Source: Bacteroidaceae bacterium
Lineage (GTDB): Bacteria; Bacteroidota; Bacteroidia; Bacteroidales; Bacteroidaceae
Reading direction: 5' to 3'
DNA length: 60,864 nucleotides
Assembly: GCA_017548075.1 (NCBI GenBank)
Contig: JAFYNL010000062.1
Coordinates: 1 to 60,864, forward strand
Positions 44,093-53,056 of this stretch are shown here, piece after piece. The first letter of the stretch is position 1, and every line of letters starts with the position of its first letter. The notes below the pieces were generated by a model that had not been told where the DNA came from, made no database searches, and was given only the letters and a program-made list of their open reading frames with translations. Made by a program: the position numbers and the translations under genes.

Positions 44093-45286
44093 ATGGCTGT
44101 TCGAATATCAGGCGTTGGTTGTTGCCTGCTTGACCGCATTTATGATAACATAGATTTTCAGTCTGAGGCCTTTCGCAAATACTGGAGCAAGAAGGCTGGT
44201 GACGGAGGTTTGGAGCCAGGCAAACTGACCTTCGAGGAAGAGTTGGAACGCTTCTCTGGGCAATCATTTGCGAAGGAGATACTTCCCTTGCTCACCAAAG
44301 GACAAGAGCCTCAGAAGGAAAATGTGGGAGGTCCCTGCATTGTGGCGCTCATCAATGCAAGCCAGTTGGCCTACAAGGAGAGCGAAGTCAGCTTCTATGG
44401 CTGCAGAGGTGAGGACGAAGTGGCTGACAAACTCCTGCAGAAGCTTCAGCAAACAAGGCTCGACCTCAGCCATTATCGTGTGGAGAAAGGTGCTGAGACG
44501 GCTTCCACAAGTGTCCTCTCAGACCCGAACTACGATAATGGGCATGGGGAAAGGACTTTCGTGAATACCATCGGAGCCTCTTGGAATTACCTTCCTGAAG
44601 AGGTTGATGAGAGCTTCTATGATGCCGATATTTGCGTCTTTGGCTCAACTGCTCTTGTGCCTCGCATTCATCAGGGACTTGTGCCAATGCTCAAGAAGGC
44701 TAAGGCAAAAGGCAAGATTACTGTTGTCAATACGGTTTATGACTTCCTGAACGAGAAAGAGCATCCTGAGAGGCGCTGGCCTATGGGTGAGAGCGACGAG
44801 AGTTACAAGTTCATAGACCTGCTTCTTGTGGACCATGAAGAAGCCCTTCGCCTAAGTGGCACTGAGGATATTCCCTCGGCAATTGCTTTCTTCCGTGAGA
44901 AAGGAACTGGTGCTGTGCTCGTTACAAACGGCGCTCAGAACATCTGGCTTTGGGCAGACAGTCCGCTCTTTGGCAAGGTTGAAGAGCAGACAATGCCAGT
45001 TTCCAAAGCCGTTGGAGAAGCTCTGAAGGCAGGAAGGAAAGGCGATAGCACAGGTTGTGGCGATAACTTTGCAGGAGGAGTGATTGGCTCTCTCGCAAGG
45101 CAAATCTTCAATGGAAAATGGAAAATGGTTAATGGACAATGTCTCGACCTGAAGGATGCCACGCGTTGGGGAATTGTGTCAGGAGGTTTTGCGTGCTTCT
45201 ACTATGGAGGCACATACCTTGAGGAGAAAGAAGGCGAGAAGTTTGCCCAGTTGCAAGAGCTTTACAACCAGTATCTCAAGCAATAA
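44093..45286 (+). CDS. PfkB-family sugar kinase
   Basis: A 397-residue ribokinase-type kinase. The ATP/anion-hole motif GDSTGCGDNFAGGVIGS holds the catalytic Asp; the N-terminus ISGVGCCLLDRIY and NVGGPCIVALINASQL provide sugar-binding glycines. It phosphorylates a sugar, plausibly the ketose made by the isomerase upstream, before cleavage by the aldolase. A tandem repeat at 45108-45140 inserts NGKWKMVNGQ in frame near the C-terminus. Its end overlaps the convergent DUF4435 gene by 11 bases. Confidence 0.88.
   Translation: MAVRISGVGCCLLDRIYDNIDFQSEAFRKYWSKKAGDGGLEPGKLTFEEELERFSGQSFAKEILPLLTKGQEPQKENVGGPCIVALINASQLAYKESEVSFYGCRGEDEVADKLLQKLQQTRLDLSHYRVEKGAETASTSVLSDPNYDNGHGERTFVNTIGASWNYLPEEVDESFYDADICVFGSTALVPRIHQGLVPMLKKAKAKGKITVVNTVYDFLNEKEHPERRWPMGESDESYKFIDLLLVDHEEALRLSGTEDIPSAIAFFREKGTGAVLVTNGAQNIWLWADSPLFGKVEEQTMPVSKAVGEALKAGRKGDSTGCGDNFAGGVIGSLARQIFNGKWKMVNGQCLDLKDATRWGIVSGGFACFYYGGTYLEEKEGEKFAQLQELYNQYLKQ
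45108..45140 (+). repeat. Short tandem repeat inside the kinase gene
   Basis: Units of AATGGAAA / AATGGTTA / AATGGACA are in frame with the kinase and encode FNGKWKMVNGQC after the ATP motif. Such units are otherwise typical of intergenic DNA here. Confidence 0.6.
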
Positions 45287-46292
45287 GTCGTTTATTGATA
45301 CGTGATATAAGGCGCTCTATATCAGCAATTAAGAGTTGGTATGGAGCGCTTTGTTTGAACTCCACACTCTTGCGAAGCATCAGTTCTATGGGCGATTGAC
45401 TGTGCCTGTAGCCAGAAAGTTCGTTCTGTTTCTGCTGGCTGTGAGCCGCAAGCTGTGAAATTTCCTTTTCTCTTTCCCTGCGAAGAATGTTGCAAACGGG
45501 CTGGAGCAAAGGCAGCACAACGCCTTCCATAAGCGCATGCCCTTGAATGTAAAGATAGGTTTCTGAAGGCTTTATGCCGAGGTCTTCCTGCAGACTTCTT
45601 CGCAAATTCAGGTAAGAGTCCTTTGCCTTCGGATATCTCCTTTGCAGCCATGCAATCTGTTTGTTTACGCGGTCCTTGAGATGTTCAAGAGACTTCTCAG
45701 GAGAGTAGGGATTGATGTCGTGGAAGGTGATGGTTTGTGCAAAGTTAGTGAGGCTGTAATTGCTTGCTTGTCCGTTCTTGTGAGCCCAAATGCTCCACAC
45801 AAAAAGCGGCCAAATAATCTTGCTGTATTCCTCCATGAAAGCCTCCAGGGAAAGAATGTTGCGGTCATTGAGCGTGCTCATCACACAAGCCGTATGCAGA
45901 GCAGGAGCATAGCATTGATAGTTCTCTATGGCATAGGCGTAGGTGTGCAGAATGAAAGGCGAGGAGAGAAGTTGCTGGCTGATTGGTGTGGCACCTTGCA
46001 CGAGGTAGTCATAGTCGGCATCCACACAGGCTATCATGTATTCGCCAAGCGATTGTCCCAGCCTGTTCATCAGGGCTGCCTTCTTGCCTTTGCTGAGTGT
46101 GTAGCGCGAAGGAAGCATCACCTGGAACTTGATGCGGTCCGTTTCAAAGTCCTGCAGGACAGAGCGCCAGAAGAACACATCATCATAGCTCTCCACATAG
46201 GCCACAATCTTCTTTACAGCATTCCTGGGCCGAAGCTTTTGAGCCAACTCTATATAAGCGGAGTTGAGATGTTCCTGCAGTCGTTTTGCCAT
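45276..46292 (-). CDS. DUF4435 TOPRIM-like protein, AriB-like partner of the ATPase
   Basis: A 338-residue protein with no signal peptide. The N-terminal domain matches DUF4435: Glu34 in VAYVESYDDVFFWR and the Asp-x-Asp at 91/93 in MIACVDADYDYL are the metal-binding residues of a TOPRIM-like nuclease fold; AYAIENYQCY resembles the 'diE' segment. AriB of the PARIS phage-defence system has this domain and works with an AAA/ABC ATPase, as here (gene two bases upstream). A helical C-terminal half follows. Likely an effector nuclease, released or activated by the ATPase; this is inference from the pair. Confidence 0.75.
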   Translation of the reverse strand: MAKRLQEHLNSAYIELAQKLRPRNAVKKIVAYVESYDDVFFWRSVLQDFETDRIKFQVMLPSRYTLSKGKKAALMNRLGQSLGEYMIACVDADYDYLVQGATPISQQLLSSPFILHTYAYAIENYQCYAPALHTACVMSTLNDRNILSLEAFMEEYSKIIWPLFVWSIWAHKNGQASNYSLTNFAQTITFHDINPYSPEKSLEHLKDRVNKQIAWLQRRYPKAKDSYLNLRRSLQEDLGIKPSETYLYIQGHALMEGVVLPLLQPVCNILRREREKEISQLAAHSQQKQNELSGYRHSQSPIELMLRKSVEFKQSAPYQLLIADIERLISRINKRLIA

Positions 46293-46294
46293 TG

Positions 46295-47113
46295 TTATTT
46301 CTTCCTTACAACAATATCATCCACATCTGTCACTCTGTCGCTCCAGCCATGCATGATGACGGCAGGACTGTGGGTTGTGAGGATGACTTGAACATTAGGA
46401 TTGAGGTCTGTCACAAGCTCGAGCAGGCGTTCCTGCCACTCTACATGGAGGCTGACTTCTGGCTCATCCATGAAGAGGACGAAAGGCTTCTTGTTCTGCA
46501 CCAGAACGGTGAGCAGGATGATGAGCATCTGCTTCTCGCCACTTGAGAGTTTGTAGGCAGAGATGGTCTCTCCGTAGCTGTCAAAGTAAAGCTCGTTTTG
46601 GTCACGCTTGATGGTCTTTCCAGTTTCAAGGAAGAGGTCGTCCACAATGTCCTGGAAGTGAGTCTTCTCGTTAGCCAGCTCCTGAACTTTTGCAGCAGCA
46701 TCGGGGTCTTTACTTGCAAAGAGTTCCACCATGCGGTTGGAGAGGTTCACCTGATAGTCCAGCCATTTGCGCCCAAGGTGATAGATGTGCAGGTCCAGTT
46801 CCGTCTGCATCTGAGTGTCTGTCAGCTTGTTCATGAATTCGCTGGAAAGGATGGGCCTGTCGAAGGAGCGGATGACTTCAAAGTCCACAGACTTGGCATC
46901 GTTTGGGAAGAATTTGATGTGCACGCCATCGTTCTTGCGCGTGTCTCTGTCTATGTCCAAGAGGTGCATGATGCAACGATTCAGGATAGTGCTCTTGCCC
47001 ACACCATTCACGCCGCTCAGGATGTTCACACCTGGCTTCAGGTCCCACTGGATGTGCTTATGCCCGTTCCACAGGGATTCTATCTCAATGCGTTCAATAT
47101 ATTGTCCGTTCAT
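46295..47113 (-). CDS. AAA/ABC-type ATPase, AriA-like
   Basis: A 272-residue ATPase of the AAA_15/AAA_21 type. Walker A is GVNGVGKST (34-42), the ABC signature LSSGEKQM (189-196), Walker B FVLFMDEPEVSLH (211-223) and the switch His in TTHSP. It has a short helical insertion between the halves, so it is smaller than SMC or OLD proteins. Together with the DUF4435 gene downstream it has the composition of PARIS AriA-AriB. A TIR-like gene lies 77 bases upstream; an 8-base tandem repeat (GAAGAAAT) fills part of that gap. Confidence 0.85.
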   Translation of the reverse strand: MNGQYIERIEIESLWNGHKHIQWDLKPGVNILSGVNGVGKSTILNRCIMHLLDIDRDTRKNDGVHIKFFPNDAKSVDFEVIRSFDRPILSSEFMNKLTDTQMQTELDLHIYHLGRKWLDYQVNLSNRMVELFASKDPDAAAKVQELANEKTHFQDIVDDLFLETGKTIKRDQNELYFDSYGETISAYKLSSGEKQMLIILLTVLVQNKKPFVLFMDEPEVSLHVEWQERLLELVTDLNPNVQVILTTHSPAVIMHGWSDRVTDVDDIVVRKK

Positions 47114-47190
47114 GATTGGAAAATTAGAAATGAAGAAATGAAGAAATGAAGAAAAACTATCTTATTATCTTATTTTCACAATTTCTTATT

Positions 47191-47718
47191 TTAAAATATC
47201 GTCGTTGAGTTCCATGGATATGTCTGAGCGCCTACAGAGAAGGTTCCCAAGGCGCGTTCCAGTTTATCTTGAGTGAGGGGGATGTGGCACATGCGGGCTG
47301 AGTCGCGGCCTATGTACTTCCGAATCTTGTTGGGCAGGCAAGTCCAGTTCTCCTCCACAGCATTGTCCTCCAAGTGATTTCTGCCCACATAGGCAATGAT
47401 GACAGGCAGGTGGAAACGGTTCACAGCCCTGCTTATCTGCCAATTCAGCATGGGAGACTCCACATTTGTGACGGGAGAGACCAGCACAAGCAAGTTGTCA
47501 GCCTGAGCCATCAGAGCAATCAGACGCGTCTTCACAGTGCTGTCCACCAAGTCATCATGCTCGCTCGAGAAGTAGATTTCATCTATGTTCAGGAAGCGGA
47601 AGCGGTCTGGATGCATTCGCTGCCAGGCATGGAGTTGCTGGAAGGTCTTCAGGTTGCTGTTCACATGGTCCAGAACGCCTGTTGCATCATAAGCGACGTA
47701 TGTTTTATGCGTGTTCAT
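47191..47718 (-). CDS. TIR-like domain protein, ThsB-type
   Basis: A 175-residue protein whose pattern fits the Thoeris ThsB TIR-like domain: first strand KTYVAYDA, second strand FRFLNID, then DDLVDSTVKTRLIALMAQADNLLVLVSPVTNVESPMLNWQ and a strand LPVIIAYVG. Gln94 in LNWQIS falls where active TIR enzymes of this class usually have the catalytic Glu, so it may not cleave NAD or may act as a sensor. The start is ATG 47718; a TTG 18 bases upstream lies inside the promoter. First gene of the unit with the ATPase and DUF4435 genes. Confidence 0.7.
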   Translation of the reverse strand: MNTHKTYVAYDATGVLDHVNSNLKTFQQLHAWQRMHPDRFRFLNIDEIYFSSEHDDLVDSTVKTRLIALMAQADNLLVLVSPVTNVESPMLNWQISRAVNRFHLPVIIAYVGRNHLEDNAVEENWTCLPNKIRKYIGRDSARMCHIPLTQDKLERALGTFSVGAQTYPWNSTTIF

Positions 47719-47733: not shown

Positions 47734-47741
47734 CAAAGATA
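47734..47741 (-). promoter_or_regulatory. -7 element of the TIR-ATPase-DUF4435 unit
   Basis: TATCTTTG on the minus strand, 15 bases before ATG 47718; a short leader with AAGAAGG as a possible ribosome site follows. Repeats of TTTAGAG lie on its upstream side. Confidence 0.6.
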
Positions 47742-48965: not shown

Positions 48966-49427
48966 ATGATTAACTACAGTATTTGTATTATGGGCACGAA
49001 GCCCGGAACTAAGAAGGCTGACATCACTGAAACCAAAGCCTATGGAACCTCGCAATGCACCGAAGTGATCGACATTCACAAATTTGCCAAGCACATCTCA
49101 GACCATGGCTCTGTTTATAGCCGAGGTGATGTGGTAGGTTTGCTCACTCAGGCTGTTGACTGCCTTCGTGAGATGATGTTGGATGGAAAAAAGGTAAGGC
49201 TTGGAGATTTGGGTGACTTTTATCCTGAGCTTGCCACCGAAGGAGCTGACACCACTGATGAGTTCAACGCTCAGAAGATTAAAGAGGTAAATGTTATCTG
49301 GATTCCAGGTAAGAGTTTCAAGAACCTCAGAGCTGAAGCAGAGTTCCAACTCGTTCCAAGCAGAAAGGCTCAGGCTGATGCCATTGAAGTTATCAGGAAC
49401 GAAGAGACCATTCAAGGACTTGAATAA
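48966..49427 (+). CDS. HU-like DNA-binding protein
   Basis: A 153-residue protein of the Bacteroidetes HU-related family (HU domain fused to other parts). YSRGDVVGLLTQAVDCLREMMLDGKKVRLGDLGDFYPEL matches the helix-turn and base of the HU fold, and NVIWIPGKSFKNLRAEAEFQLV the end; in this family the DNA-binding arm is altered. Commonly encoded beside VirE/DUF3987 genes and amidases, as here (DUF3987 gene 1 kb downstream). It may compact DNA or act as a local regulator. A terminator follows, so it is a single-gene unit. Confidence 0.85.
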   Translation: MINYSICIMGTKPGTKKADITETKAYGTSQCTEVIDIHKFAKHISDHGSVYSRGDVVGLLTQAVDCLREMMLDGKKVRLGDLGDFYPELATEGADTTDEFNAQKIKEVNVIWIPGKSFKNLRAEAEFQLVPSRKAQADAIEVIRNEETIQGLE

Positions 49428-49498
49428 CAGCCCCCTCTCAGCCTCCCCCAAAAGGGGAGGAGATAGGAGATGCTAAACCTTAAACTCTAAACTGAAAG

Positions 49499-49530
49499 AA
49501 GTGGCTGCTCGTATGAGTAGCCACTTTTTT
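49499..49530 (+). terminator. Terminator after the HU-like gene
   Basis: AAGTGGCTGCTC and GAGTAGCCACTT form a 12-base stem with a GTAT loop, followed by TTTTT. Confidence 0.9.
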
Positions 49531-49898
49531 GTGCAGTTTACAGGTGACAGGTGACGCATTGGGGAGAATGTTCATTCCTGTGATATCAAATTATTTTTAT
49601 TTTCTAAAAGAAAATAAAGGATTTTGTAATTAACAATTAGTAAATCGCTAATTCGTTTTGCAGATAAATTTCCTTGCCGTAACTTTGCTCAAAAAAAAGA
49701 TGAACATGATATACATTATATATAGTCATGGAACAGGAAGAGAGAGGAAGGAGGAGGGAAGTCTTAATGAAGCGGTTAGAAATGCTTAGGATTCCCCTGA
49801 GACTCTTTTTTAATAGAACGGGTGGTTGTAATTTTGTGGCAGAATCGAGCATAGAGAGCTCGAAAATTATATGTTGAACTGCCTAAATAAATAAAGAA
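49531..49898 (+). other. Long leader region of the DUF3987 gene cluster
   Basis: The region holds a promoter at 49657-49687, a purine-rich tract (about 49728-49765, GAAGAGAGAGGAAGGAGG-like) and a second -7-like element TAATTTTG at 49829-49836. A short frame from 49729 (MEQEERGRRREVLMKRLEML and on) is open for 49 codons but its base use and position make it doubtful. Otherwise nothing was recognised. Confidence 0.45.
49657..49687 (+). promoter_or_regulatory. Promoter of the micro-protein/DUF3987 operon
   Basis: TTTG at 49657-49660 and TAACTTTG at 49680-49687 are 19 bases apart. Confidence 0.75.
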
Positions 49899-50063
49899 AT
49901 GGCAAAATCAAAAAGAAAAGTCCCTTCGGGGCAAGATTATTTCAGGGTAACTGCCAGGCAAGTGCCCGCAGAAGAGCTGCTAAAGCTTTTCGACGCAGCC
50001 TTCAACACAAAGAAGGCAACAGAGAATGGTAACTTAAAGTTTAACGATCAAATTCCTTATTAA
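49899..50063 (+). CDS. Small basic protein ahead of the DUF3987 operon
   Basis: A 54-residue protein starting MAKSKRKVPSGQDYFRVTAR and ending KFNDQIPY. It is basic at the start, then has an amphipathic helix (EELLKLFDAAFNTKK). It is preceded by an A-rich ribosome site and followed after two bases by the next gene. No family recognised; likely cotranscribed with the genes to 52241. Confidence 0.65.
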   Translation: MAKSKRKVPSGQDYFRVTARQVPAEELLKLFDAAFNTKKATENGNLKFNDQIPY

Positions 50064-50065
50064 TT

Positions 50066-50329
50066 ATGGTATTAACAGGTATTTTTATTTACAAAGGCTT
50101 CAAGCCTGGTTGTGAAATTGATGGAAAGCTGGAAGGTATAATTCTTCTTCAGTTGGGTGCCGGAACACTTAAAGTGATGGGCTACCATCATCAAATCAGG
50201 GGTCTTAGAGAAGGTGATTATATCAGATGTACAGTTACATGTGATAATTATGGCTACATCTATCTTGAATCTGCCAAACTTGATGCTGACCAGACATTAC
50301 TTAACAGAATAGTTAACGAAAGTGAATGA
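50066..50329 (+). CDS. Small protein of unknown function
   Basis: An 87-residue protein with a beta-rich look (LEGIILLQLGAGTLKVMGYH, YIRCTVTCDNYGYIYLESAK). The pattern could be an OB-like or small barrel fold, which would suit nucleic-acid binding next to a DUF3987 ATPase, but this is a guess. It starts two bases after the previous stop; the next gene starts two bases after its own stop. Confidence 0.7.
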   Translation: MVLTGIFIYKGFKPGCEIDGKLEGIILLQLGAGTLKVMGYHHQIRGLREGDYIRCTVTCDNYGYIYLESAKLDADQTLLNRIVNESE

Positions 50330-50331
50330 TT

Positions 50332-50496
50332 ATGAGTGATTTTAAAACACAAACCTCTGAGGGCATCGGAGGTCTTACAGGGAAGTATTTTTGCTTCCTT
50401 CCTTATGGCGGTAAGGGCTTCGAGCCCTTCCGCCTCAAAGGTTATGCAGAACTAAGTGAAAGTGGAATGTTTAGATTTGAACCGATTAAAAAGTAA
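50332..50496 (+). CDS. Small protein of unknown function
   Basis: A 54-residue protein starting MSDFKTQTSEGIGGLTGKYF and ending GMFRFEPIKK. It is rich in Gly and aromatic residues. Tight spacing on both sides (2 and 5 bases) and the good start support it as a real gene of the operon. No family recognised. Confidence 0.65.
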   Translation: MSDFKTQTSEGIGGLTGKYFCFLPYGGKGFEPFRLKGYAELSESGMFRFEPIKK

Positions 50497-50501
50497 AATT
50501 C

Positions 50502-51821
50502 ATGTTGTATGATGTAAAAGTAAGTAATTTAACAGCAGAGGACTGGGCTCCTTCTGTTCGAGTTTTTTTTGAGAATCTTGAGGACAATCCTCCTCTTCGA
50601 TTGGCTCTATCTCTCACAGCCACAGTGTGTTACTGCGCTCTAAGCCCTCGGCTCAGAGTAAGGTACACTTATGATAGTGACCTGTCCATGCTCTTGATTA
50701 ATCTCTTGATTATTGGTTTCAGCGGGGCTGGAAAAAGCTCTATCAGGAAGGTTGTCTTCATAATTATGAAACGGCTTATAGAGCGGGAAATGGAGGAGAG
50801 ACGTATCTACCGTGAGGCACTTGAAGCTAACAAGAGGAAGAATGCAAACAAGGACAAAGACAATGAACCTTTGGTAGCAATTCGTTTCCTCCAAAGCTTC
50901 ACGCTGCCAGTTGTCGTAAAGTATTGTGACCACATTCATCGCAGGTATGGGGATTGGCTTTCCTTCTTCCTGTTTGGTGACGAATTAGGTTCTTTCATCG
51001 AGAATAAGCGTAATAAAGCCGATTTTCAGGCTGTCAGCAGATGTGCCTACAACTTGGGAGAAATGTACAGTCGTGACACACTTTACCAAGAAGGATACAA
51101 TGCAATGGTCGATATACTGTGGAACTCCGTCATCTGCGGCCAGGAGCAAAGTCTTCATGAATATATAGATAAGAAAGGAGTTGTTGTTGGTGATGCTGGC
51201 AGACAGATTATAATAAAGCTTAGAGACAGTCTCGGGGAAAAGCCTCCAATCTTCCATCCTCTCACAGAAGAGCAGGAGAAAATAGTTGATGATACTGTCA
51301 AGAAACTGATGGAAGAGACGTTCACAGGTGACGACAAACTCCAGCCTATCCACGAGGTGGACATGAGTTGGTTGGATGAGAATGTTGAAGATTGGTGCTC
51401 TTGGCAGAGATTCGATGTGATAAAGACAGGCTCGCGTGCTCAGAACAGCTTCTATGTCCGTGCCAGTGTCTCTGCTTTTCGTCTCTGCACAACACTCTAC
51501 CATCTATGGGGAGAAACTGAGGAATCCAAAGAGCATGTGCGCCGTTGCTACTATGCTTTTGCACAGTATATTCTTGACAAACTCATGCAGGAATTTGGAC
51601 AAATCTATGAGTCTGCAATGCCAAAAGAAAAGGAGTGTACAGCTAAAATATATCTGTATGACCAAATGCCTCGTAAATTCACAAGGAAGCAACTCGCAGA
51701 AAAGATTTCCGAGTTGGGACTCGGTACTGCTGCTCGTCAGTTTATATATAAGTGGCAGAAAGGCAACCTAATATGGAAAGTTGAGGAAGAAGAGGATACC
51801 TATGAGAAGATTTTTAGCTAA
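50502..51821 (+). CDS. DUF3987-type P-loop ATPase (primase-helicase-like)
   Basis: A 439-residue protein. The Walker A motif GFSGAGKSS is at 72-80; a likely Walker B is FFLFGDELGSF; ICGQEQSLHEYI and the later NSFYVRASVSAFRLCTTLYHLW fit DUF3987 proteins, which are encoded on Bacteroidetes mobile regions, often after VirE-N and primase-like domains. Here the VirE-N/primase part is missing and three micro-proteins stand in front. The C-terminal KFTRKQLAEKISELGLGTAARQFI looks like a winged helix. Probably acts in replication or mobility of an integrated element. Confidence 0.78.
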   Translation: MLYDVKVSNLTAEDWAPSVRVFFENLEDNPPLRLALSLTATVCYCALSPRLRVRYTYDSDLSMLLINLLIIGFSGAGKSSIRKVVFIIMKRLIEREMEERRIYREALEANKRKNANKDKDNEPLVAIRFLQSFTLPVVVKYCDHIHRRYGDWLSFFLFGDELGSFIENKRNKADFQAVSRCAYNLGEMYSRDTLYQEGYNAMVDILWNSVICGQEQSLHEYIDKKGVVVGDAGRQIIIKLRDSLGEKPPIFHPLTEEQEKIVDDTVKKLMEETFTGDDKLQPIHEVDMSWLDENVEDWCSWQRFDVIKTGSRAQNSFYVRASVSAFRLCTTLYHLWGETEESKEHVRRCYYAFAQYILDKLMQEFGQIYESAMPKEKECTAKIYLYDQMPRKFTRKQLAEKISELGLGTAARQFIYKWQKGNLIWKVEEEEDTYEKIFS

Positions 51822-51860
51822 TTGTAACCTGTAACCGTATTCTTCACTAAAAATAATACC

Positions 51861-52241
51861 ATGAAAATCACTTTGCATCGCTACCATATTGGGGAGTTTG
51901 CCTGTGACGGCAGGCTCACCATAGGTGGTGAATATGTTTGCGACACAGCAGAGCACAGTCGGTACAGGCCACCTGTTGGCACTTATAGCATAGTTCTCAA
52001 ATATAGTAAAACTCATAGGCGCAAGATGCCTTTCCTTGTGGAATCACCAAATGTTTGTCTTGCCATTGGCAACGGCGTCTTCAATTGCACAGATGGCAGA
52101 ATACTGCTCGGTACACACATCTGCCCAGGCTGCCTGAAGCATAGCCGCGAGCCCTTCATGAAACTCTATAATAGGATAAATACCTCCCTCAGAAGACGAC
52201 ACGAAGTAACTCTCAGAATCACGGAAGGCATTCCTCCGTGA
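51861..52241 (+). CDS. DUF5675-like protein
   Basis: A 126-residue protein starting MKITLHRYHIGEFACDGRLT. The pattern YVCDTAEHSRYRPPVGTYSIVLKYSK, then AIGNGVFNCTDGRILLGTHI, resembles DUF5675 (a small barrel with a His/Asn-Cys-like pocket, found near phage-type lysis and DUF3987 genes), although the usual 'IHxGN...GC' residues are partly changed. It takes the place that an amidase gene has in related clusters, so a cell-wall role is possible. A terminator overlaps its end. Confidence 0.6.
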   Translation: MKITLHRYHIGEFACDGRLTIGGEYVCDTAEHSRYRPPVGTYSIVLKYSKTHRRKMPFLVESPNVCLAIGNGVFNCTDGRILLGTHICPGCLKHSREPFMKLYNRINTSLRRRHEVTLRITEGIPP

Positions 52242-52534: not shown

Positions 52535-53056
52535 ATGAAGAAATTATTACTTACTTTAGTACTTATGCTTCCGATGATGGCAAATGCCTACGATGCCAAG
52601 ATTGACGGCATCTATTACAACTTTGCTGGAAATGAAGCAGAGGTGACGAGACAAGTTGGACTACATGGAGGTATTGTAAGTTATACTGGTTTTGTTGACA
52701 TTCCTGAAACTGTCACATGGAACAGCAAGACTTATACTGTAACGAGTGTTGGATCGTATGCTTTCAATCAATGCACGGGACTGACATCCGTCACTATCCC
52801 AAACAGCGTGACCTCGATTGGCAATTATGCGTTCGCTTATTGCTATAGCTTGACCTCCGTCACCATCCCTAACAGCGTGACCTTGATTGGCAATTCTGCG
52901 TTCCAGAGTTGCTATGCACTGACCTCTGTCACCATCCCCAACAGCGTGACCTCGATTGCTGGTGGTGCGTTCAATGGCTGTAGCGGTTTGACTTCCATCA
53001 CCATCCCCAACAGCGTGACCTCAATTGGCCCTCATGCGTTCAGTAGTTGTATTTAG
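52535..53056 (+). CDS. Short BspA-type LRR protein, probably truncated
   Basis: A 173-residue exported protein: signal peptide 1-18 (MMANA), a short N-terminal domain, then four to five LRR_5 repeats (CTGLTSVTIPNSVTSIG and copies) encoded by nearly identical 69-base units. It stops right after a repeat (HAFSSCI) and lacks the linker and the sorting tail seen in the 1426 protein, so it is probably the 5' remnant of a longer surface-protein gene. The structured RNA lies in front of it. Sequence typical of mobile regions follows. Confidence 0.78.
   Translation: MKKLLLTLVLMLPMMANAYDAKIDGIYYNFAGNEAEVTRQVGLHGGIVSYTGFVDIPETVTWNSKTYTVTSVGSYAFNQCTGLTSVTIPNSVTSIGNYAFAYCYSLTSVTIPNSVTLIGNSAFQSCYALTSVTIPNSVTSIAGGAFNGCSGLTSITIPNSVTSIGPHAFSSCI
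52779..53050 (+). repeat. 69-base tandem repeat coding for LRR units
   Basis: Four units with nearly the same DNA sequence (ACCATCCCCAACAGCGTGAC recurring every 69 bases). Such identity allows gain or loss of units by recombination. Confidence 0.8.

Follow-up and report, generated by a model that had tools for sequence, protein, structure and literature searches.

Does the gene cluster that joins a TIR-like gene to genes for an ATPase and a DUF4435 protein in a Bacteroidaceae bacterium (assembly GCA_017548075.1, contig JAFYNL010000062.1; genome 88% complete) represent a new defense system, as proposed in a preliminary description of the sequence? The three open reading frames of this leftward unit (45276..47718) are indeed present in the stretch of DNA analyzed here (60,864 nt, hereafter the window), in the order TIR, ATPase, DUF4435, with gaps of 77 bases between the first two and 2 bases between the last two. 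Overall, the comparisons with relatives favor, at a little better than even confidence, a different explanation: the Bacteroidaceae would possess a near-core, vertically inherited module that resembles the AriA-AriB pair of the PARIS system, and the unit would be a genus-level elaboration of it by a TIR protein without catalytic activity.

The distribution of the pair carries this explanation. Of 399 family genomes, 379 had a match to the DUF4435 protein, and these represent 28 of 30 genera; among the 207 good ones (at least 90% complete, at most 5% contamination), 200 had a match. Most genomes have a single copy. Outside the family, 23 of 339 genomes sampled from the order carry the protein, and 11 of 293 sampled from the phylum carry the Pfam family, one of the 11 scoring under the Pfam cut-off and the latter denominator assuming that the three listed family members were the only ones in that sample. 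For contrast, the ThsB_TIR domain occurs in 32 of 151 family genomes, with the reservation that the model misses several TIR proteins of the window's genus. In a tree of 83 rows, which were hand-chosen from the matches and placed by a quick tree search, 18 label changes suffice for 19 groups (the minimum) versus a mean of 56.5 after shuffling, and every genus with several rows groups together, with weak support (71 and 72) for two small genera. For each of the 80 rows of the tree that belong to the family, the gene immediately upstream, in the same orientation, is that of the ATPase (79 by the script's rule and one with a gap of zero). The DUF4435 proteins of different genera share ca. 47 to 60% identity over 338 residues. 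Recurrent flanks were seen in several genera, with GSCFA-dxs-trkA on one side and an EamA/DMT transporter plus a UPF1-like helicase on the other; the DMT transporter is also a neighbor in Bacteroides finegoldii. Most neighbors of the pair are metabolic or housekeeping genes, around the unit of the window those of sugar metabolism. Judged by these counts and the tree, the pair is a near-core, vertically inherited trait of Bacteroidaceae, which argues for a resident function.

Ten neighboring proteins of the window gave no match to a PADLOC model at 1e-5, no relative was found in the phage collection, and the TIR and DUF4435 patterns matched in viral contigs without a relative being confirmed. 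DUF4435 was present in nine plasmid records, i.e., two from Bacteroidaceae (46 to 49% identity), which are probably chromosome pieces listed as plasmids, and seven from Klebsiella or Acinetobacter (19 to 22%); a TIR relative was present in one Vibrio plasmid record (23%). The proposal of a new defense system in the usual sense is not supported in the form given, in view of the near-universal and vertical occurrence of the pair and the lack of a PADLOC match among the 10 neighbors.

The identities assigned to the three genes were borne out by Pfam and PADLOC alike. The ATPase matches Pfam AAA_21 (1.6e-23, 84.7 bits), the PADLOC model of AriA (5e-60) and, across the last third, AriA in the PDB (5.2e-13), while the DUF4435 protein matches its Pfam family (1.5e-46, 159.5 bits) and the PADLOC model of AriB (4.3e-56). 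The preliminary description had credited the ATPase with all motifs; Walker A, LSSGEKQ, DEPE and the H-loop His are intact in the window protein and show no change in any of the 83 distinct rows that reach 230 residues. The DUF4435 protein keeps Glu34, Asp91 and Asp93 in 85 of 85 distinct rows. A length limit excluded from these counts two short ATPases and 15 DUF4435 loci truncated at locus ends. The 85 rows also share Cys89, Cys127, Cys267 and His252 of the DUF4435 protein without exception, a possible metal or structural site. The two short ATPases (L030 of genome G511 and L103 of G425) have the signature LSNGERQ and lack about 40 residues, a helical segment with a YLDYQVN motif that is kept elsewhere in the family. 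Both genomes are without the TIR gene; the idea that the missing segment is a TIR docking site was rejected, since it is conserved in TIR-less genera too.

According to the published survey (PMC9122126), PARIS is detected as an adjacent AAA_15/AAA_21 ATPase and DUF4435 protein of at least 27 bits each and is present in 5.2% of genomes. The window pair exceeds these limits with the scores given above and a gap of 2 bases, and it has the same build, i.e., an ABC/OLD-type ATPase with intact motifs adjoining a DUF4435 Toprim nuclease. It differs in its near-core, vertical distribution, whereas PARIS as first described is sporadic and located on satellites and other mobile elements (a property of known members that is not part of a strict definition), and in the extra TIR gene of one genus.

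The third protein is of the ThsB type, which is its likeness to Thoeris. It matches Pfam ThsB_TIR (6.3e-6, 27 bits; cut-off 21.2) and the PADLOC model of ThsB (2.7e-25), and its profile finds the ThsB structure 9uv0 (3.6e-5) as well as the TIR-like chains 8v6t and 3hyn in the PDB. Unlike in Thoeris, no ThsA gene lies beside it, the next genes being the AriA/AriB-like pair; no SIR2_2 match was present in the 88%-complete genome, other types of ThsA not having been searched for. A further difference is Gln94. The Glu of this column is catalytic in TIR enzymes, and in the profile alignment it is present in all three ThsB-like structures. That Gln94 replaces the expected residue, as noted in the preliminary description, holds for nearly all of its relatives: NWQI with the Gln is kept in 53 of 54 family rows (28/28 and 25/26 of two overlapping sets). 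The TIR protein is therefore probably non-catalytic. It would be improbable that it still acts as an enzyme, even though strong purifying selection persists and the only exception, G460, which is the most divergent relative, has Glu at this position. Median ratios of nonsynonymous to synonymous substitution rates (dN/dS) of 0.061 for TIR (8 of 11 pairs computable), 0.065 for the ATPase (11/11) and 0.056 for DUF4435 (9/11) indicate that strong purifying selection acts on all three genes alike and that TIR is as constrained as the pair. A contig of G511, of the same genus, has seven ThsB_TIR matches within ca. 18 kb (G511:C46:48462-66234), the open frames concerned ranging from 262 to 867 residues; this genome lacks the TIR gene at the pair.

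How firmly the TIR gene belongs to the pair depends on the sample. In a locus search based on TIR, which reaches close relatives only, the ATPase gene is directly downstream in 28 of 28 loci and DUF4435 was seen in 27, the contig of the remaining one ending first. In the family sample of 399, which shares some genomes with the 28 loci, the TIR profile detected the gene in 26 genomes, 22 from the window's genus (34 sampled) and 4 from a second genus. In 15 of the 26, the TIR gene adjoins the pair, and in 11 it lies elsewhere (7 of the window's genus and all 4 of the second). In the TIR tree, the seven separate genes of the window's genus, five of which directly adjoin a GH92 gene, form one clade (98/97 support) nested among the adjacent ones, and the second genus, which is the outgroup, has separate TIR genes only. 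Because of this nesting, adjacency looks like the older state within the window's genus, one lineage having relocated its TIR gene. Outside the family, the TIR profile found no TIR gene beside DUF4435 in 18 loci covering about 1.5 kb on each side. The preliminary description had made the three-gene system depend on conservation of this order in related genomes, with a two-gene pair as the fallback; the order stood in the 28 TIR-selected loci and the 15 genomes, whereas most family genomes carry the pair without TIR and 7 plus 4 genomes carry TIR apart from it. On the strength of these last two observations, the TIR gene is, by distribution, specific to certain lineages and was added to a two-gene unit that is older.

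A joint transcription of the three genes is suggested by the element TATCTTTG, which begins 23 bases upstream of the ATG of TIR and which we take to be a -7-type promoter element of Bacteroidota; its presence ahead of the unit had been recognized correctly. The motif TANNTTTG occurs within 80 nt upstream of TIR in 36 of 40 loci, which form an overlapping set, but the 40 gaps between TIR and the ATPase gene do not contain it, a zero that carries little weight with gaps so short. When the 80 nt upstream of TIR in the window were shuffled by single nucleotides, 291 of 10,000 shuffled sequences had the motif. A placement only before TIR suits one transcription unit. Alternatively, TIR might merely be a neighbor, with a promoter region shared by descent, and work independently of the pair. 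This would account for the separate sites of TIR, which 7 genomes of the window's genus (beside GH92 in five) and 4 of the second genus show, and for a pair that elsewhere does without TIR, and we regard it as a serious minority possibility; however, gaps of a few to tens of bases at most loci, the -7 element before TIR alone and an order that is kept while the neighbor on the DUF4435 side switches from trkA to a pfkB-type kinase speak against it. The features of the locus are compiled in Table 1.

Table 1. Features of the TIR-ATPase-DUF4435 locus in the window
Feature	Positions	Strand	Basis
TIR-like (ThsB-type) gene, 175 aa, Gln94	47191..47718	-	Pfam, PADLOC and PDB profile matches
Short AriA-like OLD/ABC-type ATPase, 272 aa	46295..47113	-	Pfam, PADLOC and PDB match
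AriB-like DUF4435 (Toprim-type) protein, 338 aa; Glu34, Asp91, Asp93	45276..46292	-	Pfam, PADLOC
TATCTTTG, presumed -7-type promoter element before the TIR gene	47734..47741	-	Motif recurrence upstream of TIR

Two other regions of the window are worth recording. Positions 48966-52241 encode, in one direction, a HU-HIG protein, proteins of 87 and 439 residues without a Pfam match, the larger of which has a P-loop-like stretch as read by eye, and a DUF5675 protein; this region is perhaps the remnant of a mobile element. A BspA-type leucine-rich-repeat protein (LRR_5, 1.5e-36) is encoded at 52535-53056.

In the pertinent report (PMC12409363), the Toprim nuclease of PARIS is bound by the ATPase until the latter senses phage proteins; it is then released and cuts tRNA. 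Since the same parts are present here, a gated RNA nuclease would be the likeliest mechanism of the pair. By this analogy, for which PMC9122126 was drawn on as well, the ATPase would keep the DUF4435 nuclease inactive until a trigger, be it a phage or an internal stress, alters the ATPase; the freed nuclease would then cut host RNA (tRNA in PARIS), and growth would stop. The TIR protein may lack an enzymatic role and serve as an adaptor or a ligand-binding subunit by which the sensing of the ATPase is tuned or extended, rather than as an effector consuming NAD (nicotinamide adenine dinucleotide), and it would be able to act in trans, because one subclade keeps TIR and pair at separate sites.

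Several observations weigh against a genus-level elaboration of a resident AriA-AriB-like module. Apart from the 11 genomes with TIR at another site, 12 of the 34 sampled genomes of the window's genus show no TIR at all. A sugar-isomerase-like gene upstream is also retained in many loci, so part of the adjacency between TIR and the pair is synteny by inheritance. The window ATPase is much shorter than AriA of E. coli (272 versus 464 residues), and PDB searches by phmmer, by profile and with a Klebsiella DUF4435 query gave no AriB chain, so that Glu34 stands unaligned with Glu26, the residue tested in AriB of E. coli. Finally, one genus has four near-complete genomes (G508, G522, G550 and G667) that have lost the pair, which is hence dispensable, and this also suits a defense role.

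Two other functions have to be considered for the pair. In line with the preliminary description, it would be part of a true anti-phage system, PARIS with a TIR-like sensor. On sensing a product of the phage, TIR would pass a signal to the ATPase, so that the nuclease is freed. We consider this rather unlikely, although the parts match defense-family models of PADLOC and the pair falls under the published PARIS rule and is dispensable: a near-core, vertical distribution is unlike that of the ThsB_TIR domain in the same family, and neither defense genes among the 10 neighboring proteins nor a relative in the phage collection, nor a confirmed one behind the patterns in viral contigs, was found. 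The pair might instead be a domesticated housekeeping system for RNA or DNA processing, e.g., in tRNA quality control or cell cycle control, with TIR as its regulator. Near-core, vertical and mostly single-copy occurrence among housekeeping neighbors would be expected of such a system, and the archaeal OLD-family ATPase Cran1 has a role in the cell cycle and not in defense, as stated in its description (PMC12796447). The likeness is that of an OLD-type ATPase family with a reported non-defense role; Cran1 belongs to another organism and sequence class. A housekeeping role is a possibility of some substance, short of being our preferred one, since the loss in 7 of 207 good genomes shows that the pair is not essential and the divergence between genera (see identities above) exceeds the expectation for a core processing enzyme.

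We therefore retain the genus-level elaboration of the inherited AriA-AriB-like module. A more specific version, in which the pair resides in the family by vertical inheritance and switches growth by cutting RNA and the dead TIR of one genus is a sensor or brake without enzyme activity, a binding module and not an NADase, is put forward tentatively and appears doubtful in its full extent. The literature that was accessible, for the most part at the level of search listings and with subscription papers and preprints thinly covered, contained no description of a TIR protein joined to AriA-AriB and none in which the pair is a core trait that Bacteroidaceae inherit vertically, and the search returned nothing on Thoeris with an inactive TIR or pseudoenzyme.

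The interpretation of this locus should shift from a new defense cassette to a lineage-specific dead TIR on an ancient PARIS-like pair. Surveys score ATPase-DUF4435 pairs of gut Bacteroidales as PARIS defense systems (PMC10924106). If the pair is a core trait of the family, what is counted as PARIS in these bacteria may be a cell function passed on by inheritance or an immune gene that has become fixed. The Bacteroidaceae would then, if the reading is true, offer a testable case of an abortive-infection module that has turned permanent and of a TIR protein that acts without enzyme activity.

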